Source: Streptacidiphilus carbonis (GTDB lineage: Bacteria > Actinomycetota > Actinomycetes > Streptomycetales > Streptomycetaceae). Taken from it: 37,537 nt of DNA. The position numbers and the translations under genes are program-made. The stretch is from assembly GCF_000787775.1 (NCBI RefSeq), contig NZ_BBPM01000009.1, positions 22,653-60,189 on the forward strand. The letters are read 5' to 3'. Shown here in pieces: positions 9,678 to 23,707 of the stretch. Below the pieces are notes generated by a model. It made no database searches and was not told where the DNA came from. It worked only from the letters and a program-made list of their open reading frames with translations. Within the stretch, counting starts at the first letter, position 1. Each line of letters opens with the position of its first letter.

Positions 9678-9743
9678 ACGTCCACTCCTCCCGTGCGGTT
9701 GTCCTGACGCTCCAGCAGTAGATCGGAGTCCCGGGGCCGGCAC

Positions 9744-9769
9744 AAGACAGGGTGCGGACTGTCTGTCTT
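9744..9769. promoter_or_regulatory. Inverted repeat in the divergent promoter region
   Basis: AAGACAG (9744-9750) is repeated in inverse as CTGTCTT (9763-9769), and an overlapping AGACAG-N8-CTGTCT arrangement (9745-9764) is also present. It lies between the divergent inositol-phosphate synthase gene and the exporter operon and is a candidate operator for both. No known regulator consensus was recognised. Confidence 0.3.
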
Positions 9770-9910
9770 CGGGCGGTTGTTCGCCCTTGTCCGGCTATGG
9801 CCGCGCCTTGCATTATTCAAACCTCCTTGCGGAAATTGACGTATTGACATGCCGGAGGTGTTGGGGTTCGCTCGAAAGCCATGAATGCCTGGACGGGGGA
9901 GGCGAAATCC

Positions 9911-11029
9911 GTGCCGCAGGTCCGTTTATCGAGCGCTGTGATGGCGCATCCCAGCCGCGCCGGTGCGGCCTTCCGGCTCCGGAACGGCCTGGTCGATTTG
10001 GCGCCCGAGGTGGTATTCGACCCGGACCCCGAAGGGCCGCCGACCGCGCTGCGCACCGCCCGCCGCGCCTGGAGCGCGGTCGCGCCGGGCGCCACCCACC
10101 ACCTGGTGCTCCAGGACGACGCCGTGCCGAGTGCGGGCTTCGCCGCCCAGGCCGCCGCGGCCGCCGGCGCCAGGCCCGACGACGCGCTGGCGTTCTTCAC
10201 CGAGTGGGGGTCCCGCACCGCGCACATGGTCCGTATCGCCGCGCTCACCGGGGCCTCCTGGGCGCGTTCCGTGGACGAGTACGTACCCGCGCCGGTGCTG
10301 ATGCTGCCGGCTCACATCGCCGGCGGATTCGACGAGTACGCCGCGCTGAAGGCCGAGCCGGGCACACCCGACGACGTCGTCCTCGACGACTACCTGCGTG
10401 AACTCGGGGTCGGCTGCTACGTGTCGGTGCCGAACCTCGCCGACCACCTGGAGACGCCCAGCCTCACGGGCAACGACCACCTGGGCGCGCGCCGCTGCGT
10501 CTGCCTGCCGGCCGAGGCCGACCCGCCGCCGGACTGGACCGGCCCCGCGGTCGAGGCGCTGCCGATGGTGCCTCAGTTCTCCTGGTGGGAGGGGCTGTCC
10601 TGCATCCGGGTCCGGGACGGCGACCGCTACCGCAAGGAGTGGACCGCGCCGGTCCTGGCCGGCCGGGGGCTCGGCGCGGCCGAGTTGGACGCGGCGTGCG
10701 CGGCGGCGGTGCCGGCCGCGGTGCGCGAGATCGTCAGCGGGATGCTGATCCGGCAGTGGTGGCTGACCGCCTGCGCCCTGGGCATGGTCGCGGCCGATCT
10801 GGGCCTGTCCGCCGAGCGCGTCCCGGCCGCGGCCCGGCAGCCGGTCGCGGCCCGGGCGCTGGCGACGATGTTCCCCGGCGGGGTACGGCGGTTCCTGCCG
10901 GCCGGGCAGTTCGAGCGGGCCGCCGGCCTGATGCTGGAACCGCTGGTGGCGGCGCTGTGCCTGGGGGCGCAGTACGGCGGGGAGGCGTACCGGGACGCGG
11001 AGGACGTCGGGGGAGCAGTCCCGGCGTGA
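9911..11029 (+). CDS. Putative glycosyltransferase-like protein (unknown substrate)
   Basis: A 372-residue protein that I recognise only in outline. Its N-terminal ~200 residues resemble a GT-A-type nucleotide-sugar binding domain: SSAVMAHPSRA near the start, a DPDPEG segment, then HHLVLQDDAV with QDD at 68-70 in the position of the metal-binding Asp cluster, and later PDDVVLDDYLREL. The C-terminal half is helical and rich in Ala and Trp (QFSWWEG, IRQWWLTA). There is no signal peptide or membrane segment. GTG 9911 is chosen over ATG 9881, because GGGGGAGG lies 8 nt before it and nothing suitable precedes the ATG. It overlaps the next gene by 4 nt, so it is coupled to the exporter. Glycosylation of an inositol phosphate or derived lipid is an inference from context. 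Confidence 0.6.
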   Translation: MPQVRLSSAVMAHPSRAGAAFRLRNGLVDLAPEVVFDPDPEGPPTALRTARRAWSAVAPGATHHLVLQDDAVPSAGFAAQAAAAAGARPDDALAFFTEWGSRTAHMVRIAALTGASWARSVDEYVPAPVLMLPAHIAGGFDEYAALKAEPGTPDDVVLDDYLRELGVGCYVSVPNLADHLETPSLTGNDHLGARRCVCLPAEADPPPDWTGPAVEALPMVPQFSWWEGLSCIRVRDGDRYRKEWTAPVLAGRGLGAAELDAACAAAVPAAVREIVSGMLIRQWWLTACALGMVAADLGLSAERVPAAARQPVAARALATMFPGGVRRFLPAGQFERAAGLMLEPLVAALCLGAQYGGEAYRDAEDVGGAVPA

Positions 11030-12039
11030 CCGCGATCGAGGTGCGCGAGGTCAGCAAGCGGTTCCGGCTGCGGGGGCCGCTGCTCAGGCGCGGCAGGCAG
11101 CCGCGCCGGGAGACGGTCGCCCTGGACCGGGTGAGCCTGGAGATCGGCGCAGGTGAGTTCGTCGGACTGCTCGGGCAGAACGGCGCCGGGAAGTCGACGC
11201 TGGTCCGGGTGATGACCGGGCTGCTGGTGCCGGACAGCGGGACGGTGCGGGTGCTCGGGCTCGACCCCAACCGGGACCAGGTGCGGAATGCTGCCAACAT
11301 CGGAGTGACGTTCGGTCAGCGCACCCAGCTGTGGTGGGACCTGCGGGCCCGCGACTCCTTCGGGATCCTGCGCGACATGTACGGCCTGCCGGAGCCGGTG
11401 TTCGTCCGGCGGATGCGCGAACTCGACGACGTCCTCGGCCTGTCCGGGTTCTGGGACACCCAGGCGCGGCACCTCTCGCTGGGCCAGCGGGTGCGCTGCG
11501 ACCTGGCCGCCGCGGTGCTGCACCGGCCGCTGGTGCTCTTCCTGGACGAGCCGACCATCGGCCTGGACGTGCTGGTGCGGTCCCAGGTGCGGGCGATGCT
11601 CGCCGACCTGGCCCGCACCGGGGACCATGCGATCGTGCTGACCACCCATGACGTCGACGACGTCGAGGCGCTCTGCCCCCGGATCGTGCTGATCGACCGG
11701 GGGCGGCCGCTCTTCGACGGCACCCTCGCCGACCTGACCGGCATCGGCGGGCGGTCCGGCACGGTGACGGTGGAGCTGACGGCGGGCGGCGGCGGGCCGG
11801 TCCGGCTGCCGGGGGCCCGACTGCTGGAGCTGGACGGCGTCCGCGCCACCTACGCCCTGGATCCCGGGGTGGGCCAGGAGGAGTTCGCAGCCCGGCTGCT
11901 GGGCGCGGGCGGGGTGCGGTCGATCGACTTCGAGGGCGTCCGGCTGGAGGACGTGCTCCGCTCGGTCTACGCCGGCGACCACAGCCGGCTGGGCGGTCCC
12001 CCGGCACCCGTCCTTCCGGCCGCGCCGGCGCCGCCGTGA
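11026..12039 (+). CDS. ABC-2 type exporter ATP-binding protein
   Basis: A 337-residue ATPase driving the two permeases that follow. It has Walker A GQNGAGKS at 50-57, signature LSLGQR at 150-155, Walker B VLFLDEP at 170-176 and the switch histidine in TTHD. The stretch FGQRTQLWWDL after the Q-loop is typical of ATPases paired with permeases of the DUF990/ABC2_membrane_6 group rather than DrrB. A C-terminal domain of ~110 residues follows the core. The start is GTG overlapping the preceding stop (GTGA), and its own stop overlaps the next GTG in the same way, so expression of the whole cassette is coupled. Confidence 0.92.
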   Translation: MTAIEVREVSKRFRLRGPLLRRGRQPRRETVALDRVSLEIGAGEFVGLLGQNGAGKSTLVRVMTGLLVPDSGTVRVLGLDPNRDQVRNAANIGVTFGQRTQLWWDLRARDSFGILRDMYGLPEPVFVRRMRELDDVLGLSGFWDTQARHLSLGQRVRCDLAAAVLHRPLVLFLDEPTIGLDVLVRSQVRAMLADLARTGDHAIVLTTHDVDDVEALCPRIVLIDRGRPLFDGTLADLTGIGGRSGTVTVELTAGGGGPVRLPGARLLELDGVRATYALDPGVGQEEFAARLLGAGGVRSIDFEGVRLEDVLRSVYAGDHSRLGGPPAPVLPAAPAPP

Positions 12040-12833
12040 CCGGCGCCGTGCACCGGCTGGCCCGGATCGCGCCGCTCGCCGAGTGCATGCGCGGCACCAG
12101 GCTGGCGACGACCGGATTCGTGGTCGTCACCCAGGTCCTGCTCTACGCCGAGCTGTGGCGGGCGCTCTACGCGCACACCGCCGAGGTGGCCGGGCTGGAC
12201 GTCCGACAGGCCGTCAGCTACTCCACCCTGGCGACCCTGGCCACCACCGCCCGGGCCATGCGCGGTGCGACCGGGGAGTCCGTCAAGACCCGGATCCTGG
12301 ACGGCTCGATCGCCTACTGGTTCCTCCGTCCGGTGAGCGCGCGCCGGTACCGCGCCTGGTACGGGGTGGGCGAAGCGCTGTACTCCTCGGCCTGGGTGGC
12401 CGCCGGACTGGCGCTCGGGCTGGTCCTGGGGCTGGTCGCGCCGCCCGCCTCGGCCGCGGTGGCCGCACTGTCGGCGGTCAGCTTCGGGCTCGGCCTGGTG
12501 GTGCTCTACTACCTGACCCTGCTGATCGACCTGGTCGCCTTCTGGACGGTCTCCACGGAGGGCGTCACCCGGTTCTACGAGTTCGTGCAGGCGCTGCTGT
12601 CCGGGGCGCTGATCCCGCTGTGGTTCCTCCCCGGCCCGCTCGCCGCCGTGGTGACCCGGCTGCCGTTCGCGGCCGGGGTGTCGACCCCGGTCTCGCTGTA
12701 CGCGGGGCGGATCGCCCCGGCCGGTGCGGCGGGCCCGCTGGCCGTACAGGTCGGCTGGTGCCTGGTGCTGGCGGTGCTCACGGCCGCCGTCTGGCGCCGC
12801 GCGGGACGCCGTCTGGTGGTGCTGGGCGGATGA
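12036..12833 (+). CDS. ABC-2 exporter permease 1 (DUF990/ABC2_membrane_6-like)
   Basis: A 265-residue integral membrane protein with about six hydrophobic segments. ALYAHTAEVAGLD and SVKTRILDGSIAYWFLRPVSARRY in the first cytoplasmic loop are the hallmark pattern of this permease group (residues about 80-110). It starts at a GTG overlapping the ATPase stop and ends with ATGA overlapping the second permease. With its partner it should form a heterodimeric export channel. Confidence 0.87.
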   Translation: MTGAVHRLARIAPLAECMRGTRLATTGFVVVTQVLLYAELWRALYAHTAEVAGLDVRQAVSYSTLATLATTARAMRGATGESVKTRILDGSIAYWFLRPVSARRYRAWYGVGEALYSSAWVAAGLALGLVLGLVAPPASAAVAALSAVSFGLGLVVLYYLTLLIDLVAFWTVSTEGVTRFYEFVQALLSGALIPLWFLPGPLAAVVTRLPFAAGVSTPVSLYAGRIAPAGAAGPLAVQVGWCLVLAVLTAAVWRRAGRRLVVLGG

Positions 12834-13669
12834 CGGGGGTCGCGCGGACGACCGCGGGCGCGCGGACACGCCGGGCCTGGCGGGCCGCCGGGGCCACCGG
12901 CCGGGCCGGCCTGCGTGAACGGCTGGCCGACAAGGCGGACTTCGCCCTGGCGATCGTGAACGGGGTGACCTACCAGGTCACCGTGCTGCTGTTCGCGACC
13001 GTCGTGTTCACCCGGTTCCCGCCGCTGGCCGGCTGGACCGTGGGCCAGGTGCTGCTGGTGAGCAGCGTCCGGCTGCTGGCGCACGCCGTGTTCGTGCTGG
13101 GGTTCACCAATGTCAGGGAGATCCCCTATCTGATCCGTCAGGGACGGTTCGACAGCTTCCTGCTGCGCCCGGCGCCGGTGCTGCTGCAGGTGTGCACCAG
13201 CCGGTTCCCGCTGAACGCGGTGGGCGACCTCACCGTCGCCGTGACCTCGCTCGGCGTCTGCCTGTCGATGCTGCGGCTGGACTGGACCCCGGCCCGGGCC
13301 GGCTTCCTGGTCCTCGCGGTGGCGAGCGGAGCCGTGCTGGAGCTGGCGCTCGCGCTGTGCACGGCGGGCGTGGTGCTGCTCCGCCCCGGCAGCGAGGCGT
13401 TGTTCTCCTGGCTGGACACGGTGATCGGCTCTTTCGGCAACTACCCGCTGAACGTGTTCCCCGCGGTGCTGCGGGCGGCGTTCACCTTCGTACTGCCGGT
13501 GGCGTTCGTGGCGTTCTACCCGGTGGCGGCGGTGCTGGGGAAGGCGGACACGGTTCCGTACGGCCCGGCGCTGACCCTGGTGGCGCCGCTGGTCGCACTG
13601 GTCTGGCTGGGGGTGGGCCGCTGGGCCTGGCGCGCGGGGCTGCGGGCCTATCGGCGGCACGGGTGGTGA
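12830..13669 (+). CDS. ABC-2 exporter permease 2 (DUF990/ABC2_membrane_6-like)
   Basis: A 279-residue permease, second half of the channel. After a basic N-terminus (residues 1-35) it has about six membrane segments, with the family loop IPYLIRQGRFDSFLLRPAPV near residue 105 and the late GSFGNYPLNVFPAVL segment common to this group. Its ATG overlaps the stop of permease 1 (ATGA). It is the last gene of the operon: a strong hairpin follows 37 nt after the stop. Confidence 0.87.
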   Translation: MTGVARTTAGARTRRAWRAAGATGRAGLRERLADKADFALAIVNGVTYQVTVLLFATVVFTRFPPLAGWTVGQVLLVSSVRLLAHAVFVLGFTNVREIPYLIRQGRFDSFLLRPAPVLLQVCTSRFPLNAVGDLTVAVTSLGVCLSMLRLDWTPARAGFLVLAVASGAVLELALALCTAGVVLLRPGSEALFSWLDTVIGSFGNYPLNVFPAVLRAAFTFVLPVAFVAFYPVAAVLGKADTVPYGPALTLVAPLVALVWLGVGRWAWRAGLRAYRRHGW

Positions 13670-13705
13670 CCCAGCTGGTGGCGCGGGCGCTGACGCGGCA
13701 GCACC

Positions 13706-13748
13706 GCGCCCCCGTCCGGACCGCTGGACGCGGTACGGACGGGGGCGC
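13706..13748. terminator. Bidirectional hairpin terminator
   Basis: A 13-bp perfect GC stem (13706-13718 with 13736-13748) continues inward with four more pairs after one mismatch. It lies between the convergent exporter operon and the SPW-repeat gene and can end transcription from both. Confidence 0.65.
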
Positions 13749-13773
13749 CCGGTTGCCCCTTCGCGGGTCGGGC

Positions 13774-14226
13774 CTATCTCTTGGTGGGACGGCCCAGTGA
13801 CATCACCATCCCGACCGCGGCCAGTCCCAGCGCGCAGCAGACGCCGCCGATGACCACGTTGTTCCAGATCATTCCGGCCGTGGGGTGGTGTCCGACGGTC
13901 ACCACCCAGGGCGAGATGATCAGCCAGACGCCGATCGCCGCGACGACGCCGCTCAGCCGGAACATCCGCTCGGGCGCGAGCGTGAGCCCCATCCCGATCA
14001 CGGCCAGGGCGATGCCCAGGATGAGGTTGTTGACCAGCAGGTTGTTGTTGCTGGGGCCGAAGTGCACGACCCACGGGGAGATCGCCGCGTAGAGGCCGGC
14101 GAGGAGCACCAGGCCGTCGATGGCGACGACGCCACGGCGGCTCTCCATTCGGGCGTACCGCGCCCGCATCTCGGCCACGTCAGGGTGGGCCGCGATGTCG
14201 GGGCCACGATTCGCGATGTGAGCCAT
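13774..14226 (-). CDS. SPW-repeat membrane protein
   Basis: A 150-residue small membrane protein with four predicted membrane segments and two SPW motifs (ISPWVVHFG and ISPWVVTVG), one per repeat, each followed by an asparagine-rich segment (SNNNLLVNNLILG and IWNNVVIGG). This is the signature of the SPW repeat family, whose function is unknown. The chosen ATG (14226) has AGAAGG 8 nt upstream; an in-frame ATG nine codons further out lacks a good site. It neighbours an IHF-like protein and a PRC-barrel/DUF2382 protein, a grouping that suggests a stress or stationary-phase role by inference only. Confidence 0.88.
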   Translation of the reverse strand: MAHIANRGPDIAAHPDVAEMRARYARMESRRGVVAIDGLVLLAGLYAAISPWVVHFGPSNNNLLVNNLILGIALAVIGMGLTLAPERMFRLSGVVAAIGVWLIISPWVVTVGHHPTAGMIWNNVVIGGVCCALGLAAVGMVMSLGRPTKR

Positions 14227-14330
14227 TCTGATCGCCTTCTTCCGGAAAAGCATGAAAGGCCCTGTGTTCCTCCACTTTCCCCTTTATTGTCCGGTTCACT
14301 CATCTGCACGGCGCGTCTCTGTCCGAGCGA

Positions 14331-14666
14331 TCAGCCCACCGCGTCGCGGGGCACCGGCGCATGGCTCAGGGCCTCGGCGAGGGCCTGCCGCTGAGCCGCG
14401 GTGAGGTCCTGGAGGCACTGGTCGTCCCGCAGCCGGGCGCGCTTGAGCAGGTCGTGGGCGGTGAGCCAGTCCACCCCCGGCAGCGCCCGGAACAGCGCGC
14501 CGACCGGCATCGACGCCGCCGCCGGATCACCGCTGCCCGCGGCGATCAGCACCCGGGCCAGCCCGGTCACCCCGTCGGCGGCCACGGCGGCCAGCAGCCG
14601 CTCCTGTGCGCGGTGCTGCACGGACTGCTCCGGCACAGCGGGGTCACGGTCGAATTCGGTCGACAT
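14331..14666 (-). CDS. Divergent actinobacterial IHF-like nucleoid protein
   Basis: A 111-residue protein whose C-terminal part (VGALFRALPGVDWLTAHDLL through LTAAQRQALAEAL) follows the layout of the sIHF/mIHF fold: a V-AL--LPGV turn, a helix, then an R-rich turn and a final L--Q--AL helix. In sIHF the turn reads LPGVGKVRA and binds the DNA backbone; here the Gly-Lys is replaced by Asp-Trp, and the basic N-terminal helix of sIHF (KNRLKHS) is replaced by a more neutral HRAQERLLAAV. DNA binding may therefore be altered. ATG 14666 is chosen because GAGGAG lies 6 nt upstream; its length then matches sIHF. The family assignment is by pattern only. Confidence 0.6.
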   Translation of the reverse strand: MSTEFDRDPAVPEQSVQHRAQERLLAAVAADGVTGLARVLIAAGSGDPAAASMPVGALFRALPGVDWLTAHDLLKRARLRDDQCLQDLTAAQRQALAEALSHAPVPRDAVG

Positions 14667-14766
14667 GGCAGGCTCCTCACGGTCCGGGCCGACGGACGGC
14701 GTGCTCCCTTCCATTCTCGTCCTGTCCGGCGGCGCCGTCGGTGCCACTTCGGTACCGCTTCGACAG

Positions 14767-14816
14767 CGACGGCCGCGGGCCGGACACCGCGAAGGGTGTC
14801 CGGCCCGCGGCCGTCG
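14767..14816. terminator. 22-bp perfect hairpin terminator
   Basis: Arms 14767-14788 and 14795-14816 are perfect 22-nt reverse complements around a 6-nt loop (GCGAAG). The element starts one base after the stop of the PRC-barrel/DUF2382 gene and isolates the downstream IHF-like gene from it. Confidence 0.8.
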
Positions 14817-14817
14817 A

Positions 14818-15636
14818 TCAGGGCTTGCGCGGGTCGCCGAGGCGCCCCTCGCCGGCCTGCGCGGACCGGTGCGCCTGCCGCGTCCGCGCCATGTGCGCGT
14901 GCAGGGCCTCGTCCTCCTGGTAGTCGATCTGCTCGGTGCGGAGGTCCTCGGTGAAGGAGACGTCCTCGGTGACCTCCTCGACCCGCATCCGGACCCGCTC
15001 GACCGGGACGGTCTCCTTGCGGACCATGGCGCGCTCCTCGTGCAGCACCACGTCCTGCTCCTGCTCGGTCCAGTCGGGGACGACGCCGTCGGCCTCGGTC
15101 GAGCCGGCCACGATGGGGTCGCGCTCGATGCGCACCTCCTCGTGCTTCACCGGGATGGTGCGGGTGACCCGCTCGGTGGTGATCCACTTGTGCAGCTTGG
15201 CGTGGCCGACCTCGACGTTCTCGCTGTTGAGCCGCAGCCGCTCCTCGGAGCGGGTCAGGTACTCGCCCACCCCTCCACCGGTGCCGTCGCGCTCGGAGAG
15301 CTTCGCGGTCGGGAAACCGCCGTCGGAGCCGAGGCCGTAGTGCCGGTACAGCGCCAGTTCCTCGTCGGCGCTGAGCGGCCGGCCCGCGTCCAGGTCCGGA
15401 GCACCGTCCACCTGCGCGCGCCCGTAGGCGAGTTGCACGTCGTCCGCGACCAGGTGGGCACCGCTCATCGGCGCGAGGTGCCCCTTGCCCAACAGTCCGC
15501 TCTTGACCAGGATCCACTGCTCGTGCTCCGCCGAGCGGTCCCGGTAGACCTGGCCCGCCTGTCCGATCTTGTTCCCCGCGGCGTCGAGCACCTTGTGCCC
15601 GACAACCTGCTGGGGATCGAGGGTCGGAGTTCCCAT
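14818..15636 (-). CDS. PRC-barrel and DUF2382 (YsnF/AvaK-type) protein
   Basis: A 272-residue soluble protein. Residues about 8-90 form a PRC-barrel (VVGHKVLDAAGNKIGQAGQVY, then EQWILVKSGLLGKG); about 150-262 form the DUF2382 domain with its alternating LRLNSENVEVGHAKL / RTIPVKHEEVRIERDP / VVLHEERAMVRKETVPVERVRM strands. The family is linked to stress responses in Streptomyces, Bacillus and cyanobacteria, but no activity is known. ATG 15636 is preferred over the upstream in-frame ATG, because GGAGGAGG lies 5 nt before it. It is followed at once by a 22-bp hairpin terminator. Confidence 0.88.
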   Translation of the reverse strand: MGTPTLDPQQVVGHKVLDAAGNKIGQAGQVYRDRSAEHEQWILVKSGLLGKGHLAPMSGAHLVADDVQLAYGRAQVDGAPDLDAGRPLSADEELALYRHYGLGSDGGFPTAKLSERDGTGGGVGEYLTRSEERLRLNSENVEVGHAKLHKWITTERVTRTIPVKHEEVRIERDPIVAGSTEADGVVPDWTEQEQDVVLHEERAMVRKETVPVERVRMRVEEVTEDVSFTEDLRTEQIDYQEDEALHAHMARTRQAHRSAQAGEGRLGDPRKP

Positions 15637-15953: not shown

Positions 15954-16388
15954 TCAGGGTGTGGCGGGGCGGATCAGGCGGTCGTCGGGGATGACGGCGA
16001 CGCCGACGATCTCGATCAGGGCTTCGGGCTGCCAGAGGGCGGTGGTGCCGATGCCCGCCATGGCGGGGTAGACCGGACCGGCGAGTTCGCGCCAGGCCCT
16101 GCCGATCTCCTTGCCGTGGGCCTGGTAGTCGGGGATGTCGGTCAGGTAGATGGTGATGCTCACCAGGTCCGCAGGGACCCCTCCGGCCGTTGCGAGGGTG
16201 GTGAGGACATTGCCGAAGGCCTGCCGGAACTGCTCGACGATGCCGCCCGGGACGATCTTCATGTCCTGGTCGAGGGCCGTCTGGCCGCCCAGGTGGAGGG
16301 TGTTGCCGCTGAGCGTTCCGTGGGAGTAGCCGCTGGGCGTGGGCAGGGACGCCGGGTTGATCGGGATGGGTGTGGAGTCGGTCGTCAT
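15954..16388 (-). CDS. RidA/YjgF family protein lacking the catalytic Arg
   Basis: A 144-residue trimer-forming YjgF/RidA-fold protein (HLGGQTALD near 32-40, ITIYLTDIPDY at 78-88, EALIEIVGVAVI at 122-133). Classical RidA enzymes hydrolyse reactive enamines/imines using an arginine in P-A-R; here that position is Met110 (YPAMAGIG), so standard imine deaminase activity is doubtful and it fits the uncharacterised Rid subgroups better. Glu126 of the conserved VEI segment is kept. It is divergent from the aryl-CoA operon with a 90-bp shared promoter. A TAGCGT -10 sits 6 nt before the ATG and there is no ribosome binding site, suggesting a leaderless mRNA. A role on an enamine intermediate of that pathway is an inference. 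Confidence 0.87.
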   Translation of the reverse strand: MTTDSTPIPINPASLPTPSGYSHGTLSGNTLHLGGQTALDQDMKIVPGGIVEQFRQAFGNVLTTLATAGGVPADLVSITIYLTDIPDYQAHGKEIGRAWRELAGPVYPAMAGIGTTALWQPEALIEIVGVAVIPDDRLIRPATP

Positions 16389-16407
16389 GCCGCCACGCTA
16401 GCAGCTA

Positions 16408-16438
16408 TTGACAGATCTGTGACGGTCGGCGGAATAAT
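16408..16438 (+). promoter_or_regulatory. Candidate promoter of the aryl-CoA operon
   Basis: A perfect -35 TTGACA (16408-16413) is followed by AATAAT (16433-16438), with a longer than usual 19-nt spacer. On the other strand TAGCGT (16395-16400) could be the -10 of the divergent RidA-like gene. Both would flank the palindrome at 16409-16422. Confidence 0.4.
16409..16422. promoter_or_regulatory. Palindrome, candidate PaaX operator
   Basis: TGACAGATCTGTGA contains the perfect 10-bp palindrome ACAGATCTGT. It overlaps the -35 of the catabolic operon and the promoter spacer of the divergent RidA-like gene. The operon ends with a PaaX-family repressor gene, the obvious candidate to bind here. It is not the E. 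coli PaaX consensus. Confidence 0.4.
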
Positions 16439-16478
16439 GAAATAAGCACTGAGGGACAAGCAGGAAAGAAGAGGGCCG

Positions 16479-17312
16479 ATGCGCTTCGCGACTGTCTCGG
16501 GCACGACCGGGACCACCACCGCTGCGGTGCTCGACGGGGAGGGCTGGCGGGCGCTTCCGGCCGCCGACCTGTCGGCGCTGCTGGCCTCCGTGCCGCCGGC
16601 GGAGGTGGCCGCGACGGCGGCCCGGGCCGGTGCGGCCGTCGGCGGCGCCGTTCCGGTGCTGCCGCTGCCGGCTCCCGGCAAGGTGATCTGCTGCGGGCTG
16701 AACTACGGCGAGCACATCCGGGAGACCGGGCGCGAGCTGCCGGCCCACCCGACGCTGTTCACCAAGTACGCGGACACGCTGGTCGGCCCCGAGGCCGACA
16801 TCGTGCTGCCCGCCGGACTCGGCCTGCAGGTCGACTGGGAGGCCGAGCTCGCCGTCGTGGTCGGCACGACCCTGCGGCGCGCCGACCGGGCCACCGCACT
16901 GGCCGGAATCGCCGGCTACACCGTGGCCAACGACATCTCGGTGCGCGACTGGCAGTACCGGACCCTGGAGTGGTTCCAGGGCAAGGCCTGGGACCGGTCC
17001 ACCCCGGTCGGCCCGGTCGTGGTGACCCCGGACGAGATCGACCCCGTCGACGGCGTGGAGGTGGTCTGCCGGGTCAACGGCGAAGAGGTGCAGCGCGACA
17101 GCACCAGGACCCTGGTCTTCGACCCGGCCGAACTGCTCGCCTACATCTCGACGTTCACCGTGCTGCGCCCCGGCGACCTGGTGCTGACCGGCACGCCCGG
17201 CGGTGTGGGCGTGGCCCGCGACCCGCAGCGCTTCCTCGCCGACGGCGATGTCGTGGAGACCGAGATCCCCGGCATCGGCACCCTGCGCAACACCGTGCGC
17301 TTCACCGCCTGA
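16479..17312 (+). CDS. Fumarylacetoacetate hydrolase (FAH) family C-C hydrolase
   Basis: A 277-residue enzyme of the FAH superfamily, which hydrolyses or isomerises ring-opened dioxo acids with a divalent metal. Typical features are CCGLNYGEHIRETG (71-84, His79), FTKYADTLVGPEADIVLP (94-111), the metal ligands Glu121 and Glu123 in DWEAELAVVVG, Asp152 in ANDISVRDWQ, and late LVLTGTPGGVG. Length fits fumarylpyruvate, acylpyruvate and 2-oxohept-3-ene-dioate hydrolases; the substrate cannot be told from motifs. It is first in an operon with a cupin, a thioesterase, an aryl-CoA ligase and a fused aryl-CoA oxygenase/reductase. Its position suggests hydrolysis of the ring-cleavage or beta-diketone product. 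RBS AAGAGG precedes the ATG. Confidence 0.9.
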   Translation: MRFATVSGTTGTTTAAVLDGEGWRALPAADLSALLASVPPAEVAATAARAGAAVGGAVPVLPLPAPGKVICCGLNYGEHIRETGRELPAHPTLFTKYADTLVGPEADIVLPAGLGLQVDWEAELAVVVGTTLRRADRATALAGIAGYTVANDISVRDWQYRTLEWFQGKAWDRSTPVGPVVVTPDEIDPVDGVEVVCRVNGEEVQRDSTRTLVFDPAELLAYISTFTVLRPGDLVLTGTPGGVGVARDPQRFLADGDVVETEIPGIGTLRNTVRFTA

Positions 17313-17379
17313 CCCCGCCGACACCCCGACCCTGCCAACCCTCCGACCCAGACCCCTCCCGAGCGGCGAAGGAGCCACT

Positions 17380-17865
17380 ATGGAGCCCGACTTCAGCAAG
17401 TACGTCCTTGAGGGCGACAACTCGGTGTACGCCAACGCGAGCGGCCTGGTGGTGCCGGTGGTCACCCGGGCCGGCGCCGAGCCGGGGAACACCGGCCAGT
17501 CCGACGGCGCGGTCCGGATCTCCGGGGTGGGCCCGCAGCACACCCCGGCCAGGCGGATCTGGTTCGGCAAGGTCAGCAACGAGGCCGGCTACCGCTCGGT
17601 GCCGCACCACCACGGCGAGGCCGAGACCGGCGGCTATGTGCTGTCCGGCCGGGCCCGGATCTACTTCGGCGAGCGGTTCGCGGACTACATCGACATGGCC
17701 GAGGGCGACTGGGTGTTCGTACCGCCCTTCATGCCGCACGTCGAGTGCAACCTGGACCGCAACCACCCGCTGACCTGGATGACGACCCGCACCCCGGAGA
17801 ACATCGTGGTCAACCTCCCCCAGGTCGCCGACACCGACCTGCGCGACTGGACGGAGCGGAACTGA
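17380..17865 (+). CDS. Single-domain cupin protein (possible dioxygenase)
   Basis: A 161-residue single cupin. Motif 1 gives His76, His78 and Glu82 (VPHHHGEAETGG) and motif 2 gives His120 (VPPFMPHVECN), so all four usual metal ligands are present; the motif 2 glycine is Phe. This fits a metal-dependent enzyme rather than a plain binding protein. In this operon it could be a ring-cleaving dioxygenase acting on a hydroxylated aminobenzoate or gentisate-like compound, but it is much shorter than two-domain gentisate dioxygenases and I cannot assign a substrate. The start has GAAGGAG 6 nt upstream. TGATG overlap with the thioesterase gene couples translation. Confidence 0.85.
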   Translation: MEPDFSKYVLEGDNSVYANASGLVVPVVTRAGAEPGNTGQSDGAVRISGVGPQHTPARRIWFGKVSNEAGYRSVPHHHGEAETGGYVLSGRARIYFGERFADYIDMAEGDWVFVPPFMPHVECNLDRNHPLTWMTTRTPENIVVNLPQVADTDLRDWTERN

Positions 17866-18797
17866 TGACCGAGCCCACCTCCGAGGTGTTCACCGCCGCC
17901 GTCACGCTCACCCCCGCCGAGGCCGAGCACTTCGACCTCGCCTTCACCGCCGTCACCCAGCCCTGCCCGTGGCCCAAGGCGTACGGGGGAGACCTGGTGG
18001 CCCAGGCCGCGGCGGCCGCGATGCGCTCCGTCGCCGACGGCAAGACCCTGCACTCGATGCACTCCTACTTCATGCGCCCGGCCGACATCGGTGCCGAGGT
18101 CCGCTACGAGGTGGAGCTGCTGCGGGACGGCCGCGGCTACTCGACCCGCCAGGTGCGCGGCTACCAGAACGGCAAGCCGGTCTACGTCTGCCTGGCCAAC
18201 TTCGCCGCCGGGGAGCCGGGCGCCTCCCACAGCGACGCCCCGCCGCACTGGGCGGGTCCCGCGGAGCTCACGCCCCCGGAGAAGCTGCCCAGTTCCGCGG
18301 AGTACCTGGCGGACCGCAGCGGCGGGACGATGACCGAGGAGTCCAAGGCGTACTGGTCCGGTGGCCGCGGCTTCGACATGCGTCATCTGCCGGGCCCGGT
18401 CTACCTGGCCGTCGAGGGCGAGCGGGTGCCCCACCAGGCGCTCTGGGTCAAGCCGTTCGACACCCTGCGGCCGGTCGACGGGCTCAGCGACAGCCGGCGT
18501 GACCTGGCCGCCCTCGCCTATGTGTGCGACTACACCATCCTGGAGCCGCTGCTGCGGGTCCTCGACCTGCCCTGGGCGCGGGAGGGCCTGGTCACCGCCA
18601 GCCTGGACCACGCGATGTGGTTCCACCGCGCACCGGCGCCCGGCACGGCCGACGGCTGGCTGCTCTACGCCCAGCAGGCCGTCGCCGCCGACTCGGGCCG
18701 CGGCGCCGCGATCGGACGGTTCTTCACCCCGGACGGCGCCCATCTGGCCACCGTCGTCCAGGAAGGGATGATCCGCGACCTGGAGGGGGGCCACTGA
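17865..18797 (+). CDS. Acyl-CoA thioesterase, TesB-like double hotdog
   Basis: A 310-residue double-hotdog thioesterase related to TesB/acyl-CoA thioesterase II. The N-terminal hotdog contains AYGGDLVAQAAAAAM and LHSMHSYFMRPADIG; the C-terminal hotdog contains SLDHAMWFH (catalytic-type Asp), GRGAAIGRFF and VVQEGMIR (catalytic-type Gln). In this operon it probably removes CoA from an aromatic or ring-opened acyl-CoA. This would parallel conversion of gentisyl-CoA to gentisate in the salicylyl-CoA route of Streptomyces sp. WA46. Both ends overlap neighbours by TGATG junctions. Confidence 0.88.
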   Translation: MTEPTSEVFTAAVTLTPAEAEHFDLAFTAVTQPCPWPKAYGGDLVAQAAAAAMRSVADGKTLHSMHSYFMRPADIGAEVRYEVELLRDGRGYSTRQVRGYQNGKPVYVCLANFAAGEPGASHSDAPPHWAGPAELTPPEKLPSSAEYLADRSGGTMTEESKAYWSGGRGFDMRHLPGPVYLAVEGERVPHQALWVKPFDTLRPVDGLSDSRRDLAALAYVCDYTILEPLLRVLDLPWAREGLVTASLDHAMWFHRAPAPGTADGWLLYAQQAVAADSGRGAAIGRFFTPDGAHLATVVQEGMIRDLEGGH

Positions 18798-20467
18798 TGA
18801 CACAGCGACAGCCGCAGTCAAAGCCGCAGCCACTGGCACTGACTCGTTCCGGACACACCGACACCTTCGCCCGCGACCACCTGCCGCCCGCCGGGCAGTG
18901 GCCGGTGCTGGAGTTCAGCACCGAGCAACTCCAGTACCCGGAGCGGCTCAACGCCGCCACCGAGCTGATCGACGTGCCCACGGCGGCCTTCGGCCCGAAC
19001 CGCCCCGCGCTGCGCACCCCCGACGGCGAGGTCTGGACCTACGGCGAGCTGCAGCGGCGGGTCAACCAGATCGCCCAGGTGCTCACCGAGGACCTGGGCC
19101 TGGTGCCCGGCAACCGGGTGCTGCTGCGCTCCCCGAACACCCCCTGGACCGTGGCCGCCTGGCTGGCGACGGTCAAGGCCGGCGGCATCGTGGTCACCAC
19201 CATGGCCGCGCTGCGGGCCGGCGAACTGGCGCCGGTCGTGGCGAAGACCCGGCCCGTGGTCGCGCTGGTGGACCACCGCTGCCTCGACGACATGGCCGTC
19301 CTCACCGACACCGTCGCACCGGACCTGGTGGTCGTGTCCCACGGCGGTGACACGGCCGACGACCTCAGCCGCCGGGTCGAGCTCAAGTCGGGGGAGTTCA
19401 CCGCGGCCGACACCGCGGCGGACGACGTCGCGCTGTTCGGGCCGACCTCGGGCAGCACCGGCGTCCCGAAGATCACCACCCACTTCCACCGCGACCTGCT
19501 GTCGATCGACAACACCTTCGCCCGGAACCTGCTCGGGCTGGTCCCCGACGACCTGGTGGCCTGCACCGCGCCGATCGCCTTCACCTTCGGCCTCGGCATG
19601 CTGGTGGTCTTCCCGCTGCGGGCCGGGGCCTGCGCCTTCCTCACCGAGGCGGTGCCGCCGACGCGGCTCGCCGAGCTGGTGGCCGAGCACGGCGTGACGG
19701 TCCTGGCGACCGCGCCCACGGCGTACCGGCAGATCCTCACCTCCGGCGGGGTCCGGCAGCTCGCCGGGCTGCGCGCCGCCGTCAGCGCGGGGGAGCACAT
19801 CTCGCCCGACGTCTGGAACCAGCTGCGCGACCAGCTCGGCCTGCGGGTCATCGACGGGATCGGCGCCACCGAGCTGCTGCACATCTTCATCTCCGCGGCC
19901 GGCGACGACATCCGCCCCGGGGCGACCGGACGGCCGGTCCCCGGCTACCGCGCCGCGATCCTGGACCCGGACGGCAAGGAGCTCGGACCCGGCGTCGAGG
20001 GCTGGCTCGGGGTGATCGGCCCGGTCGGCTGCCGCTACCTGGACGACGAGCGGCAGGAGAACTACGTCCTCAACGGCTGGAACATCACCAGCGACATCTT
20101 CCTCCGGGACGAGGACGGCTACTTCTGGTACCGCTCGCGCAACGACAGCATGATCGTGTCCTCCGGCTACAACATCGCCGGACCCGAGGTCGAGGCGGCG
20201 ATCGACACCCATCCGGACGTCCTGGAGTCGGCGGTGGTCGCCGCACCCGATCCGGTGCGCGGCTCGGTGGTGTGCGCGTTCGTGGTGCTGCGCGAGGGCG
20301 TGGCCGGGGACCCGGCGAAGGCCAAGGAGATCCAGGACCACGTCAAGCGGCAGATCGCGCCGTACAAGTACCCGCGCGTGGTGCGCTTCACCGGTTCGCT
20401 GCCGCGCAACACCAGCGGCAAGCTGCAGCACTTCAAGCTCCGTCAGCAAGTGGAGGTACAGCCATGA
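18797..20467 (+). CDS. Aryl-CoA ligase (2-aminobenzoate/benzoate-CoA ligase type)
   Basis: A 556-residue ANL-family acid-CoA ligase that activates a carboxylate through an acyl-AMP. The P-loop TSGSTGVPK is at 217-225, the A5 motif reads GIGATELLHIF, the hinge region reads YRSRNDSMIVSSGYNI, and the catalytic lysine of the C-terminal domain is Lys542 (NTSGKLQHF). The overall pattern (ATELLHIFIS, SGYNIAGPEVE) is that of 2-aminobenzoate- and benzoate-CoA ligases. The downstream gene is a 2-aminobenzoyl-CoA/salicylyl-CoA type oxygenase, so the substrate is probably anthranilate, salicylate or a near relative. The ATG overlaps the thioesterase stop; the end overlaps the next ATG by 4 nt. Confidence 0.9.
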   Translation: MTQRQPQSKPQPLALTRSGHTDTFARDHLPPAGQWPVLEFSTEQLQYPERLNAATELIDVPTAAFGPNRPALRTPDGEVWTYGELQRRVNQIAQVLTEDLGLVPGNRVLLRSPNTPWTVAAWLATVKAGGIVVTTMAALRAGELAPVVAKTRPVVALVDHRCLDDMAVLTDTVAPDLVVVSHGGDTADDLSRRVELKSGEFTAADTAADDVALFGPTSGSTGVPKITTHFHRDLLSIDNTFARNLLGLVPDDLVACTAPIAFTFGLGMLVVFPLRAGACAFLTEAVPPTRLAELVAEHGVTVLATAPTAYRQILTSGGVRQLAGLRAAVSAGEHISPDVWNQLRDQLGLRVIDGIGATELLHIFISAAGDDIRPGATGRPVPGYRAAILDPDGKELGPGVEGWLGVIGPVGCRYLDDERQENYVLNGWNITSDIFLRDEDGYFWYRSRNDSMIVSSGYNIAGPEVEAAIDTHPDVLESAVVAAPDPVRGSVVCAFVVLREGVAGDPAKAKEIQDHVKRQIAPYKYPRVVRFTGSLPRNTSGKLQHFKLRQQVEVQP

Positions 20468-22854
20468 GGATCGCCATCGCCGGGGGCGGGCCGGGCGGCC
20501 TCTACTTCGCCGCCCTGATGGCCCAGTTGGACCCGGCGCACGAGGTCACCGTCTGGGAGCGCAACGCGCCCGACGACACCTTCGGCTTCGGCGTGGTCTT
20601 CTCCGACGAGACCCTCGGCGGCATCGACAATGCCGACGAGGTGGTCCACGCCCGGATGGAGCGCGGGTTCGCCCGCTGGACCGACATCGACATCGAGTTC
20701 GGCGGCCACCGGTTCAGCGTCGGCGGCCAGGGGTTCGCCGCGATGAGCCGCAAGGAGCTGCTGCGGATCCTGCAGGAGCGGGCCGCCGAGCTCGGCGTCA
20801 CCGTCCACTACCGGACCGCGGCGCCGGACGTGGACCAGCTGAGGGACCGGTACGACCTGGTGCTCGCCGCCGACGGGCTCAACTCCGCGATCCGGACCAA
20901 GCACGCGGACGTCTTCGAGCCGTCGCTGGACCGGCGCCGCAACAAGTACATCTGGCTGGGCACCGACCTGGTCTTCGAGGCCTTCCAGTTCTTCGTCAAG
21001 CAGACGGAGTGGGGCACCATGCAGATCCACGGCTACCCGTACTCCGACACCGGTTCGACCTTCATCGTGGAGATGCACGAGGACGTCTGGCGGCGGGCCG
21101 GCTTCGACCGGACCGAGGAGCAGGCGCTGCCGCCCGGCGTCTCCGACGAGTACGCGGTCGCCAGGATCGCTGAGATCTTCGCCGCGGAGCTGAAGGGCCA
21201 TCAGGTCCTCAGTAACAACTCCAAGTGGCTCAACTTCACCACGGTCCGCAATGAGCACTGGTACGACGGCAATGTGGTGCTGCTGGGCGACGCGGCCCAC
21301 ACCGCGCACTTCTCCATCGGCTCGGGCACCAAGCTCGCCATGGAGGACGCCCTGGCGCTGGCCGCCTGCCTGCACGAGCAGCCCACGGTGGCCGAGGCGC
21401 TGGCGGCCTACCAGGCCGAGCGCAAGCCGGTGGTGGAGTCGACCCAGCGGGCGGCGCAGGCCTCGCTGGAGTGGTTCGAGAACATCGGCATGTACGCGGA
21501 CCAGGACCCCGCGCAGTTCGCCTTCAACCTGCTCACCCGCTCGCGCCGGATCACCTTCGAGAACCTGCGCGAGCGCGATCCGGGGTTCGCCGCGCTGATG
21601 GAGGCCGAGTTCGCCCGGCAGCAGGGGGTTCCCGCGGAAGCCGCTGCCGCCGGGGGGACCGCCCCGGCGATGTTCCAGCCGGTGCGGATCGGCGCGCTGG
21701 AGCTGAAGAACCGCGTCATCGTCTCCCCGATGGACATGTACTGCTCGGTGGACGGCGTCCCCGGCGACTTCCACCTGGTGCACCTGGGCTCCAAGTCACT
21801 GGGCGGGGCCGGGCTGGTGATGAGCGAGATGGTCTGCGTGTCGCCCGAGGGCCGGATCACCCCGGGCTGCCCGGGGCTGTGGACCGACGAGCAGGGTGAG
21901 GCGTGGCGCCGGGTCACCGACTTCGTGCACCGGAACAGCACCGGGAAGATCGGCCTGCAGCTGGGCCACTCCGGACGCAAGGGCTCGACCAGGCTGATGT
22001 GGGAGGGCATGGACCAGCCGCTGGAGACGGGCAACTGGGAGGTGATCGCACCGTCCGCGATCCCCTACGGCAGCGGCTGCCATGTGCCGCGCGAGGCGAC
22101 CCGGGCCGACCTGGACCAGGTGGTGGCCGACTTCGCTGCCGCGGCGAAGCGCGCGGTGCGCGCCGGGTTCGACCTGGTCGAGGTGCACGCGGCGCACGGC
22201 TACCTGCTGTCGTCCTTCCTCTCGCCGGTCGCCAACGAGCGCACCGACGCGTACGGGGGCCCGCTGGAGAACCGGCTGCGGTTCCCGCTGGAGGTCTTCG
22301 ACGCGGTGCGGCGGGCCGTCCCGGCCGCGATCCCGGTGACCGTCCGGATCTCGGCCACCGACTGGGTGCCGGACGGCAACACCGAGCACGACGCCGTGGA
22401 GATCGCCCGGGCCTTCATCGAGCACGGCGCCGCCGCCATCGACGTCTCCTCGGGCCAGGTCACCCAGGAGGAGAAGCCGGCCTTCGGCCGCTCCTACCAG
22501 ACCCCGTTCGCCGACCGGATCCGGCACCGGGTGGCCGGGCCGGCCGGGGTGCCGGTGATCGCGGTCGGCGCCATCTCCTCCTACGACGACGTGAACTCGA
22601 TCCTGCTCGCGGGGCGCGCGGACCTGTGCGCGCTGGGCCGCACCCACCTCTACAACCCGCAGTGGACCCTGCAGGCCGCGGCCGAGCAGGAGTACCGGGG
22701 GGCGGGGGCGGAGTGGCCGGTGCAGTGGGAGGCCGGCCGCCGCAGGCCGCCGTCCGCCCGCACCGACAAGGTGCCGCCGCGGCTGTCGCTGCTGCGGGAA
22801 GGGACCGGGGGAGCGGTGCACCAGCGCTGGACGCCTGTTCGGCATACTGCCTGA
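20464..22854 (+). CDS. Fused aryl-CoA flavin monooxygenase/OYE reductase (ACMR-like)
   Basis: A 796-residue two-enzyme fusion. Residues 1 to about 385 are an FAD monooxygenase (GGGPGG at 7-12, VLAADGLNSAIR, GDAAHTAHFSIGSG from 275), related to salicylyl-CoA 5-hydroxylase. After an Ala-rich linker, residues from about 403 (MFQPVRIGALELKNRVIVSP) to about 770 are an FMN-binding Old Yellow Enzyme-type reductase (LQLGHSGRKG, HAAHGYLLSSFLSP). This order is that of 2-aminobenzoyl-CoA monooxygenase/reductase of Azoarcus evansii, which hydroxylates and then partly reduces the ring of aminobenzoyl-CoA. Similar proteins are often annotated as bifunctional salicylyl-CoA 5-hydroxylase/oxidoreductase. The start has GGAGG 7 nt upstream and overlaps the ligase stop. 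It is the key enzyme of this island. Confidence 0.92.
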   Translation: MRIAIAGGGPGGLYFAALMAQLDPAHEVTVWERNAPDDTFGFGVVFSDETLGGIDNADEVVHARMERGFARWTDIDIEFGGHRFSVGGQGFAAMSRKELLRILQERAAELGVTVHYRTAAPDVDQLRDRYDLVLAADGLNSAIRTKHADVFEPSLDRRRNKYIWLGTDLVFEAFQFFVKQTEWGTMQIHGYPYSDTGSTFIVEMHEDVWRRAGFDRTEEQALPPGVSDEYAVARIAEIFAAELKGHQVLSNNSKWLNFTTVRNEHWYDGNVVLLGDAAHTAHFSIGSGTKLAMEDALALAACLHEQPTVAEALAAYQAERKPVVESTQRAAQASLEWFENIGMYADQDPAQFAFNLLTRSRRITFENLRERDPGFAALMEAEFARQQGVPAEAAAAGGTAPAMFQPVRIGALELKNRVIVSPMDMYCSVDGVPGDFHLVHLGSKSLGGAGLVMSEMVCVSPEGRITPGCPGLWTDEQGEAWRRVTDFVHRNSTGKIGLQLGHSGRKGSTRLMWEGMDQPLETGNWEVIAPSAIPYGSGCHVPREATRADLDQVVADFAAAAKRAVRAGFDLVEVHAAHGYLLSSFLSPVANERTDAYGGPLENRLRFPLEVFDAVRRAVPAAIPVTVRISATDWVPDGNTEHDAVEIARAFIEHGAAAIDVSSGQVTQEEKPAFGRSYQTPFADRIRHRVAGPAGVPVIAVGAISSYDDVNSILLAGRADLCALGRTHLYNPQWTLQAAAEQEYRGAGAEWPVQWEAGRRRPPSARTDKVPPRLSLLREGTGGAVHQRWTPVRHTA

Positions 22855-22855
22855 G

Positions 22856-23707
22856 ATGAACGAGACCAAGGCCGACCGGCCTCCCGCGGCTGCGACCGCC
22901 TCCCGGACCGTGCTGGTGAGCTTCCTCGGTGCCACGGTGCGCAAGATGGGCAACTGGATGCCGATCGCGGGAACGGTGGCGCTGCTGGCCCAGTCAGGCC
23001 TGGACACCTCCAGCGTCCGCACGGCGGTGTTCCGGCTGAAGAAGCGCGGCTGGCTGGAGTCGGAGACCCGCGCGGGCATGCGCGGCTACTCGCTGACGCC
23101 GGCCGCGCTGGACGCCCTCGCCGTCGGCGACGAGGTGATCTGGCACGCCCGGCAGCCGGCAGACCTCGGCGACGGCTGGTGCCTGGTGAACTTCTCGGTG
23201 CCCGAGTCCGCCCGGGCGATGCGGCACCAGCTGACCGCGCACCTGACCTCGCTCGGCTTCGGCAACATCGGCTCGGCGGTGTGGATCGCCCCCGCCAGGA
23301 TGCTCCCGGCCGCCCAGCGTGCCATCGCCGAGCTGGACCTGACCCGGTACTGCGCCGTCTTCGTAGGCGACTACGCGGCCGGGCAGGAGCTCACCACCAT
23401 GGTCCGCAACGGCTGGGACCTGGACGGGATCGACCGCCGCTACCGGGAGTTCATCGAGGACTACCGCGACGAGGCCGACCGGCTGGCCGGCTCCGACGTG
23501 ATCGGCGGGCAGCACGCCTTCACCACCTACCTCGCGGTGATCGACCGCTGGCGCAAGCTCCCGTTCCGCGACCCGGGCCTGCCGAGTGAGGTGCTCACCG
23601 CAGACTGGAGCGGCCCGGCCGCCGTCCAGCTCTTCGAACGCCTGGTCACCATGCTGGAGGGCCGGGCCCTGGCCCACGCCGCCCCGTACTGGTCGGCGCA
23701 GCCGTAG
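22856..23707 (+). CDS. PaaX-family transcriptional repressor
   Basis: A 283-residue PaaX-type regulator: an N-terminal winged helix (about 15-85, with SSVRTAVFRLKKRGWLES as recognition region) followed by the PaaX domain (GWCLVNFSVPES, GSAVWIAPARM) and its C-terminal part (YREFIEDYRDEAD, FTTYLAVIDRWRKLPFRDPGLP). PaaX regulators sense aryl-CoA thioesters such as phenylacetyl-CoA. The gene starts one base after the stop of the oxygenase gene, so it is operonic, and it probably responds to the first CoA thioester of the pathway. A likely operator is at 16409-16422. It ends 5 bp from a convergent permease gene. Confidence 0.9.
   Translation: MNETKADRPPAAATASRTVLVSFLGATVRKMGNWMPIAGTVALLAQSGLDTSSVRTAVFRLKKRGWLESETRAGMRGYSLTPAALDALAVGDEVIWHARQPADLGDGWCLVNFSVPESARAMRHQLTAHLTSLGFGNIGSAVWIAPARMLPAAQRAIAELDLTRYCAVFVGDYAAGQELTTMVRNGWDLDGIDRRYREFIEDYRDEADRLAGSDVIGGQHAFTTYLAVIDRWRKLPFRDPGLPSEVLTADWSGPAAVQLFERLVTMLEGRALAHAAPYWSAQP

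Follow-up and report, generated by a model that had tools for sequence, protein, structure and literature searches.

How does a bacterium complete the breakdown of an aromatic acid that it activates as a coenzyme A (CoA) ester, when genes for beta-oxidation are not linked to those for activation and ring attack? The question is raised by a 37,537-nucleotide stretch of Streptacidiphilus carbonis DNA (the window), which is part of contig C131 (NZ_BBPM01000009.1) of an 8.46-Mb genome assembled in 139 contigs (completeness 99.88%). In it, an aryl-CoA ligase and a flavin adenine dinucleotide (FAD) monooxygenase fused to an Old Yellow Enzyme (OYE)-type reductase (the fusion) are encoded together with a thioesterase, a small cupin, a hydrolase, a divergent RidA-like protein and a regulator. 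We propose that these genes form an operon for the complete catabolism of anthranilate by way of anthraniloyl-CoA, with an ending other than beta-oxidation, a reading to which we give an even chance. All seven genes, which an initial annotation had described as one coupled operon, are present and in frame at or near the positions it assigned to them, and hidden Markov model (HMM) searches confirmed their families:

15954..16388, minus strand: RidA-like protein of the Rid superfamily (PF01042, 73 bits), proposed enamine/imine deaminase acting on a CoA ester.
16405..16444, no strand assigned: conserved promoter/operator-like stretch between RidA and FAH, CTATTGACA ... GACGGTCG ... AATAATGAAATA, a putative PaaX or RNA polymerase site.
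16479..17312, plus strand: FAH-superfamily hydrolase (PF01557, 235 bits), proposed acylpyruvase (succinylpyruvate hydrolase).
17380..17865, plus strand: single-domain cupin of 161 amino acids (PF07883) with a 3-His/1-Glu ligand set, proposed ring-opening dioxygenase.
17865..18797, plus strand: TesB-like two-hotdog acyl-CoA thioesterase (PF13622, PF20789, PF02551), proposed to release CoA after deamination.
18797..20467, plus strand: aryl-CoA ligase (TIGR02262, 311 bits against a cut-off of 375), proposed anthranilate-CoA ligase.
20464..22854, plus strand: FAD monooxygenase fused to an OYE-type reductase (NF006101, PF01494, PF00724), proposed anthraniloyl-CoA monooxygenase/reductase.
22856..23707, plus strand: PaaX-family transcriptional regulator (PF07848, PF20803, PF08223).

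Cupin and TesB overlap by 1 base, as do TesB and the ligase, the ligase overlaps the fusion by 4 bases, and 1 base separates the stop codon of the fusion from PaaX, a spacing that makes a coupled unit a reasonable reading; chance is excluded by the conservation of the gene set over the 80 loci described below. The fusion scores 1214 bits over residues 1-773 against NF006101 (cut-off 1078), the model named 'bifunctional salicylyl-CoA 5-hydroxylase/oxidoreductase', with the monooxygenase at approximately residues 1-356 and the reductase at approximately 403-740. At full length it is single-copy in the source genome, the remaining matches covering one domain or part of one. The HMM family of the ligase, with PDB relatives 2v7b and 4wv3, is that of benzoate-CoA ligase, under the cut-off, and TesB is clear at domain level (best E 5.7e-39 among its PDB relatives) with 161.7 bits against TIGR00189, under the equivalog cut-off of 292.85. 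The regulator matches the PaaX-family domains and is best called PaaX-like, since its 148 bits against TIGR02277 lie under the cut-off of 264.55 and do not reach the identity of a phenylacetate regulator.

According to the proposed pathway, the ligase would convert anthranilate into anthraniloyl-CoA, as shown for the ligase of plasmid pAL1, and the fusion would carry out an O2- and NADH-dependent 5-hydroxylation and reduction to 2-amino-5-oxocyclohex-1-ene-carboxyl-CoA, a reaction reported for the Azoarcus enzyme and expected here from the family and the intact reductase residues. Hydrolysis of the ring enamine by the RidA-like protein could then give ammonia and 2,5-dioxocyclohexane-carboxyl-CoA, which matches the C7H8O4-CoA of anthranilate-grown Arthrobacter sp. 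Rue61a, and TesB may release CoA to leave dihydrogentisate, a cyclic beta-keto acid capable of enolisation. The cupin is our candidate for the ring opening: with a metal and O2 it would break the bond that joins the carboxyl-bearing carbon to the adjacent keto carbon, yielding 2,4-dioxopimelate (succinylpyruvate). This compound belongs to the acylpyruvates, on which FAH-type acylpyruvases act, and the FAH hydrolase, or another cellular acylpyruvase where it is missing, would form succinate and pyruvate, with no isomerase needed. The PaaX-type regulator probably senses an aryl-CoA. The order of ligation, hydroxylation/reduction, CoA removal and cupin plus FAH action had been put forward in the initial annotation, and it is also the order that we prefer.

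The substrate is probably anthranilate rather than salicylate, because the same operon lies on pAL1 of Rue61a, whose ligase is a proven anthranilate-CoA ligase. The plasmid operon runs PaaX, RidA (minus strand), FAH, cupin, TesB, ligase, fusion, PaaX (minus strand), and its ligase and fusion are 63.8% and 70.9% identical to those of the window; the published gene numbers were matched to the pAL1 record by order and by the record's single fusion gene. The ligase, expressed in E. coli, made anthraniloyl-CoA, and anthranilate-grown cells contained anthraniloyl-CoA together with CoA esters of C7H7NO3 and C7H8O4 acids found exclusively on anthranilate, which the authors read as hydroxyanthraniloyl-CoA and possibly cyclohexanedione-carboxyl-CoA (PMC3534580). 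Rue61a grew on anthranilate and not on salicylate or gentisate, and it has a second, chromosomal ligase/fusion pair (PMC3534580), so the pAL1 copy is not the sole source of the activity.

The neighbourhoods of the fusion in other genomes show three endings. In a sample of 150 genomes of the window's family, the fusion (E<=1e-200) was found in 97, with 108 copies in total. The neighbourhoods of 107 copies, the window's own left out, were typed with reference proteins, a bicupin defining type III, a 161-amino-acid cupin type II, and otherwise a hydratase or acyl-CoA dehydrogenase type I; the counts of other genes are results. Contig ends cut L165, L178, L198, L227, L239 and L241, and L148, a separate cupin locus of genome G055, was not counted. 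Type I comprises 59 loci, with a hydratase in all 59, an acyl-CoA dehydrogenase in 55, a ligase in 56, PaaX in 53 and an SDR in 7. In the 16 type II loci, TesB, RidA, ligase and PaaX are each present throughout and some FAH in 14, and no hydratase or acyl-CoA dehydrogenase was found at 38% or more identity to the references. The 28 type III loci all have a hotdog thioesterase, a C-N hydrolase, an FAH and a ligase, with PaaX in 24; four family loci (L211, L224, L243 and L244) were unclassified.

These three endings follow the fusion phylogeny. In a maximum-likelihood tree of 141 sequences (the window, the 107 family loci, 25 of the 80 loci and eight plasmid records), all 46 type II rows lie on one side of one branch (SH-aLRT 99); the 25 loci carry a common type II label despite the missing cupin of L022, L024 and L049. 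Mapped on the tree, the three labels change 3 times, against a minimum of 2. The only proteobacterial type III row, L129, groups with a type I row on long branches; type III may therefore have arisen twice.

The window fusion has H575, H578 and Y580 of the reductase intact. His575 and Tyr580 are invariant in 62/62 type I and 46/46 type II rows of the alignment, and in the 29 type III rows His575 is replaced by Gln throughout and Tyr580 is changed in 28. Asp424 is Ala in all 29 type III rows and in 3 of the 62 type I rows, and His578 is kept in all rows of all three types. We take His575 and Tyr580, which have the spacing of the OYE substrate-binding and proton-donor residues, to play the roles familiar from OYE and YqjM. 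The window fusion should make a non-aromatic product, because its reductase residues are intact and RidA is usual in types I and II. On the simplest reading, types I and II yield a non-aromatic enamine that RidA then hydrolyses, and type III stops at the aromatic 5-hydroxy product, keeping the nitrogen through ring cleavage and releasing it by the C-N hydrolase.

Type III operons (e.g., L142-L145, L184, L199, L206, L218, L220-L222 and, at 8448-15323, L129) carry a C-N hydrolase of the nitrilase type and, in 27 of the 28 family loci, a gene of the Asp/Glu-racemase/Amdase family. Their bicupin gives under-cut-off matches to gentisate and 5-aminosalicylate dioxygenase models (L129) and matches the PDB gentisate dioxygenase 3bu7 (L145). 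The gene content suggests a route from 5-hydroxyanthranilate through maleamylpyruvate, maleamate and maleate to fumarate. Both 5-hydroxyanthranilate and gentisate were long ago reported from Nocardia opaca (cited in PMC4539516), which may correspond to type III. The 'gentisate-like' combination thus exists, but as a separate clade.

RidA stands near the fusion in 51/59 type I, 16/16 type II and 0/28 type III loci (Fisher p 2e-18, for sequences that are not independent). The window protein is divergent, with 40.5 bits against TIGR00004 (cut-off 106.25), and falls outside the archetypal model. In archetypal RidA, the Arg of the PAR motif binds the substrate carboxylate. Among four PDB chains compared, Met110 of the window protein aligns with this Arg in 3r0p, 3k0t and 8qok, and the best-scoring chain, 5v4f, also lacks it. 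Met occupies the position in 51/51 type I and 15/16 type II RidA proteins, the last having Leu. Met instead of Arg fits a RidA acting before TesB, because a CoA thioester offers no carboxylate, and such an order fits the C7H8O4-CoA ester of Rue61a. In the intergenic region between RidA and FAH, the octamers CTATTGAC and GACGGTCG occur in 35 and 27 of 78 such regions, window included (raw counts without a shuffled control), and a search for a palindromic PaaX operator in 15 regions gave no consistent inverted repeat.

Far from being a special island, the operon represents a form common among actinobacteria, with RidA as one of its core genes. The recurrence of the gene set in other genomes, which the initial annotation had named as a check, was followed in the best 80 of 311 fusion-relative loci from a genome-contig scan, a gene being counted at 50% or more identity within 6.5 kb. 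The five-gene set of RidA, cupin, TesB, ligase and fusion is complete in 74/80 loci, the exceptions being L019, L021, L022, L024, L049 and L065. By gene, TesB is present in 80/80, RidA in 79/80 (L065 is cut by a contig end, which affects this count), cupin and ligase in 77/80 each and the FAH ortholog in 46/80; every locus has cupin or FAH (both in 43, cupin only in 34, FAH only in 3). A small hotdog thioesterase, which is not in the window operon, occurs in 44/80 loci, mostly directly after the fusion. The closest named fusion matches, at 85-87% identity, are Streptomyces records (L009-L011).

Beta-oxidation genes are no regular part of these 80 operons. ECH, ACAD or HADH reference matches occur in six loci (L009, L010, L028, L033, L047 and L079), approximately 1.8 kb or more past the fusion, and SDR matches in L027, L045, L047 and L079, all at 26-46% identity; the reference set left out thiolase. 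The initial annotation had stated that the window holds no hydratase, dehydrogenase or thiolase. Hydratase (PF00378) and thiolase (PF00108) indeed have no match on contig C131, nor do the ECH, ACAD and HADH references match the window, and the statement needs qualifying for two weak SDR-like stretches (29905-30228 and 30521-31234, minus strand, 28-35% identity to references), which lie 6 kb beyond the operon and are probably unrelated to it. With the linked beta-oxidation set missing, the departure from the textbook 2-aminobenzoyl-CoA route noticed in that annotation holds. A PEP mutase-family gene (PF13714) lies 7 kb upstream, at 7774-8532 on the minus strand.

The cupin tracks the type II fusion. 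An ortholog (E<=1e-30) is present in 17/17 family genomes with a type II fusion, at 74% or more identity to the window, in 1/80 with other fusions only (G055, a partial match of 61% located elsewhere) and in 0/53 without the fusion. Its domains, Cupin_2/Cupin_1, score just over the Pfam cut-offs, and the full metal-ligand set first noticed in the initial annotation, H76-x-H78-x3-E82...H120, is invariant in 48 sequences. The cupin has no NCBIfam match at E<=0.001 and weak PDB matches only, oxalate decarboxylases first. An AlphaFold model built from the 48 sequences reaches a mean pLDDT of only 58.7 and would support no more than 'a cupin'. Dke1-type beta-diketone dioxygenases cleave beta-diketones with O2 at a three-His Fe(II) site; the window cupin has His ligands plus a Glu, and its fold model is weak. 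Monocupin ring-cleavers do exist, e.g., 5-nitrosalicylate dioxygenase with three His ligands (PMC10306065). Relatives of the type II cupin at 53-61% identity also stand outside the usual operon place, on contig C22 of G055 (L148, with an FAH approximately 6.5 kb away), in L081 at 3.1 kb and in L049 at 21.4 kb.

In the FAH hydrolase, E121, E123, D152 and K169 are invariant and H79 and E82 nearly so among 31 sequences. A His-Glu lid pair is an acylpyruvase feature of the FAH superfamily. The E121-x-E123 ... D152 ligands share the spacing of the FAHD1 metal ligands E71-x-E73 ... D102 (PMC7116474). With acylpyruvase ligands and lid pair both in place, the protein is predicted to hydrolyse an acylpyruvate. 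Its closest PDB entries, over residues 1-275, are 6j57/6j5x, which the search showed under the depositors' name only and which we take to be the C. glutamicum fumarylpyruvate hydrolase. A second FAH, of 39-46% identity, lies just past RidA in six further loci (L056, L061, L062, L066, L082 and L088). Where the orthologous FAH is missing, a divergent one (39-49%) stands beside PaaX on the far side of RidA in those six and in L147 and L156-L161, and replacement of one FAH by another is possible.

The recurrence of a thioesterase, a cupin-class ring-cleaver and an FAH together in type III counts for the proposed pathway. Several observations weigh against it. The FAH ortholog is missing from 34/80 clusters; in the 21 of these 34 genomes that were searched the best FAH relatives are 41-57% identical, and no FAH lies within the 15 kb of L146, the nearest relative in the family. 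L022, L024 and L049 have no cupin in the cluster; a genome search gave no cupin match for the first two and, for L049, a 53% relative 11 kb away. Compared with the type III bicupins, the cupin has an hhalign probability of 1% and no detectable relation to gentisate dioxygenases, and Foldseek with the weak model returned generic cupins including quercetin dioxygenase and oxalate decarboxylase, so that the nearest folds include non-oxygenases. A cupin can also be a hydratase, as in riboflavin catabolism (PMC12746152). The thioesterase could act elsewhere in the sequence, and at most of the 80 loci no gene that would feed anthranilate into the operon is in view. We know of no assay of any second-half enzyme.

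Some of these observations would suit a hydrolytic ring opening, in which FAH (or TesB) performs a retro-Claisen cleavage of the cyclic beta-keto compound to 4-oxopimelate or its CoA ester, the cupin serves as a tautomerase or hydratase, as cupins can (PMC12746152), and general beta-oxidation completes the degradation of the C7 chain. FAH enzymes are established to cleave 1,3-dicarbonyls, L022 and L024 retain FAH with no cupin match in the genome, and 15 hydratase-family matches lie elsewhere in the source genome; we nevertheless consider this opening unlikely, though by no means negligible, as the FAH ortholog is found in 46/80 loci against 77/80 for the cupin and 34 loci have the cupin and no FAH ortholog. 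FAH as an obligatory ring opener is weakened by the same 34 loci.

It is improbable, and rather more so, that the operon follows type I chemistry with unlinked genes, the beta-oxidation-like steps being encoded elsewhere and RidA, TesB, cupin and FAH being housekeeping or overflow functions. Beta-oxidation is the accepted Azoarcus scheme (PMC4539516), and crotonase and thiolase genes occur elsewhere in the source genome. However, type I operons carry the hydratase and mostly the acyl-CoA dehydrogenase (55/59) and type II operons neither (0/16, the types being partly defined by these genes), the occurrence of TesB and cupin goes with that of the type II fusion, and a thioesterase would strip the CoA that beta-oxidation requires. 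The database name of the fusion, its score over the NF006101 cut-off and the presence of thioesterase, cupin and FAH would suit a salicylyl-CoA to gentisate route, which is very improbable and was rejected, as gentisate dioxygenase (TIGR02272) has 0 matches at E<=0.001 in the 99.88% complete genome, the cupin is of another family (hhalign 1% against the type III bicupins), the intact reductase and RidA would be left without a role, and neither salicylate nor gentisate supports growth of the pAL1 host (PMC3534580). For the same reasons (no gentisate dioxygenase match in the genome, intact OYE residues, a pAL1 host that uses anthranilate), the mixture with salicylyl-CoA/gentisate logic proposed in the initial annotation is not supported.

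Returning to the anthranilate operon with its cupin and FAH ending, genes that yield anthranilate lie beside the same operon in some carriers, namely tryptophan dioxygenase (TDO) with an aminotransferase-V gene, kynU, and aqdC1. At 40% identity or more, the 80 loci contain TDO in 2, iorA in 6, the cyclase in 14, and kynU and aqdC in none. In S. carbonis, the genes for kynureninase and tryptophan dioxygenase are neighbours on a different contig, and the source of anthranilate can be tryptophan via kynurenine. Co-occurrence with kynureninase proved uninformative as a test of function, as 144/150 family genomes carry one at E<=1e-60. On the Rhodococcus plasmid pRLCBG43, the PQS dioxygenase gene aqdC1 (L126:13776-14612) adjoins the type II gene set, and quorum-signal and anthranilate breakdown travel together. 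An isatin-hydrolase-type cyclase (PF04199) and indolepyruvate-oxidoreductase-like iorAB lie near the type II operon in 6/80 loci (L013, L021, L022, L024, L030 and L049), and the pairing recurs at L125:13840-18674; it would be in keeping with the isatin route that has been reported at auxin (iad) loci (PMC9613470). The ligase is missing from the clusters of L021 and L049, and also from that of the short locus L019. A shortcut without ligase, from isatin through isatinate to anthraniloyl-CoA, is possible.

The ligase and fusion steps and the Azoarcus beta-oxidation continuation are already known (PMC4539516). In the available part of the Rue61a paper, only the ligase, the fusion and the PaaX regulators are assigned (PMC3534580), and the open-licence literature searched, as far as its text was accessible, yielded no paper that assigns the type II cupin, FAH, TesB or RidA step or describes the three-way split. 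We tentatively suggest, at somewhat less than even probability, an undescribed strategy of ring opening. The ring would lose its aromaticity while bound to CoA, and a Rid protein would then deaminate it, the Arg that normally binds carboxylate being absent from this protein because it acts on a thioester. After CoA release, a small cupin would cleave the non-aromatic dihydrogentisate to succinylpyruvate, from which FAH would form succinate and pyruvate. This same joint estimate covers a re-use of the fusion family with three endings, in one of which the reductase would have decayed, leaving hydroxylation only and the cleavage of free 5-hydroxyanthranilate.

GapMind left out tryptophan degradation via anthraniloyl-CoA monooxygenase/reductase for lack of knowledge (PMC9007349), and our comparison turns this gap into a small set of testable steps. 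The ending used by a genome is largely readable from the clade of its fusion, and Met-type RidA, cupin and FAH receive definite candidate substrates. The data suggest that enzymes whose reductase domain is intact and enzymes in which it is dead go under the uniform NF006101 name, and that, in types I and II at least, the substrate is more likely to be anthranilate than salicylate. The breakdown routes of tryptophan, indole/auxin, quinaldine and quinolone signals meet at anthranilate.

Among known systems, the Streptomyces salicylyl-CoA/gentisate (Sdg) route employs a stand-alone hydroxylase, free gentisate and a gentisate dioxygenase. It resembles the window in CoA ligation before 5-hydroxylation and differs in that the window has its hydroxylase within the fusion and the search of its genome for a gentisate dioxygenase gave no match. 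Type III operons of the family sample and of Caballeronia pSBC1_4 share the fusion, a thioesterase, a cupin-class ring-cleaver and FAH, with the ligase in 28/28 family loci, and differ by the bicupin akin to gentisate/5-aminosalicylate dioxygenases, the C-N hydrolase, the racemase-family gene, the lack of RidA and the degenerate reductase site. Type I operons of the family sample, Paracoccus, Ruegeria and Comamonas share the fusion, the ligase and usually the Met-type RidA, whereas they have a hydratase and an acyl-CoA dehydrogenase, with an SDR beside them in three proteobacterial records and 7/59 family loci, and no type II cupin or TesB. The 2-aminobenzoyl-CoA pathway of Azoarcus evansii likewise has a ligase, a fusion-type flavoenzyme and a non-aromatic CoA product, but continues there by beta-oxidation, where the window operon, without those genes, has cupin, TesB and FAH (PMC4539516). 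On pAL1 of Rue61a (ARUE_113p00220/00230 and neighbours), a hotdog gene that was not found in the window operon follows downstream, and otherwise the order of divergent RidA, FAH, cupin, TesB, ligase and fusion with flanking PaaX is the same, in the system in which the ligase activity and the CoA esters were measured.

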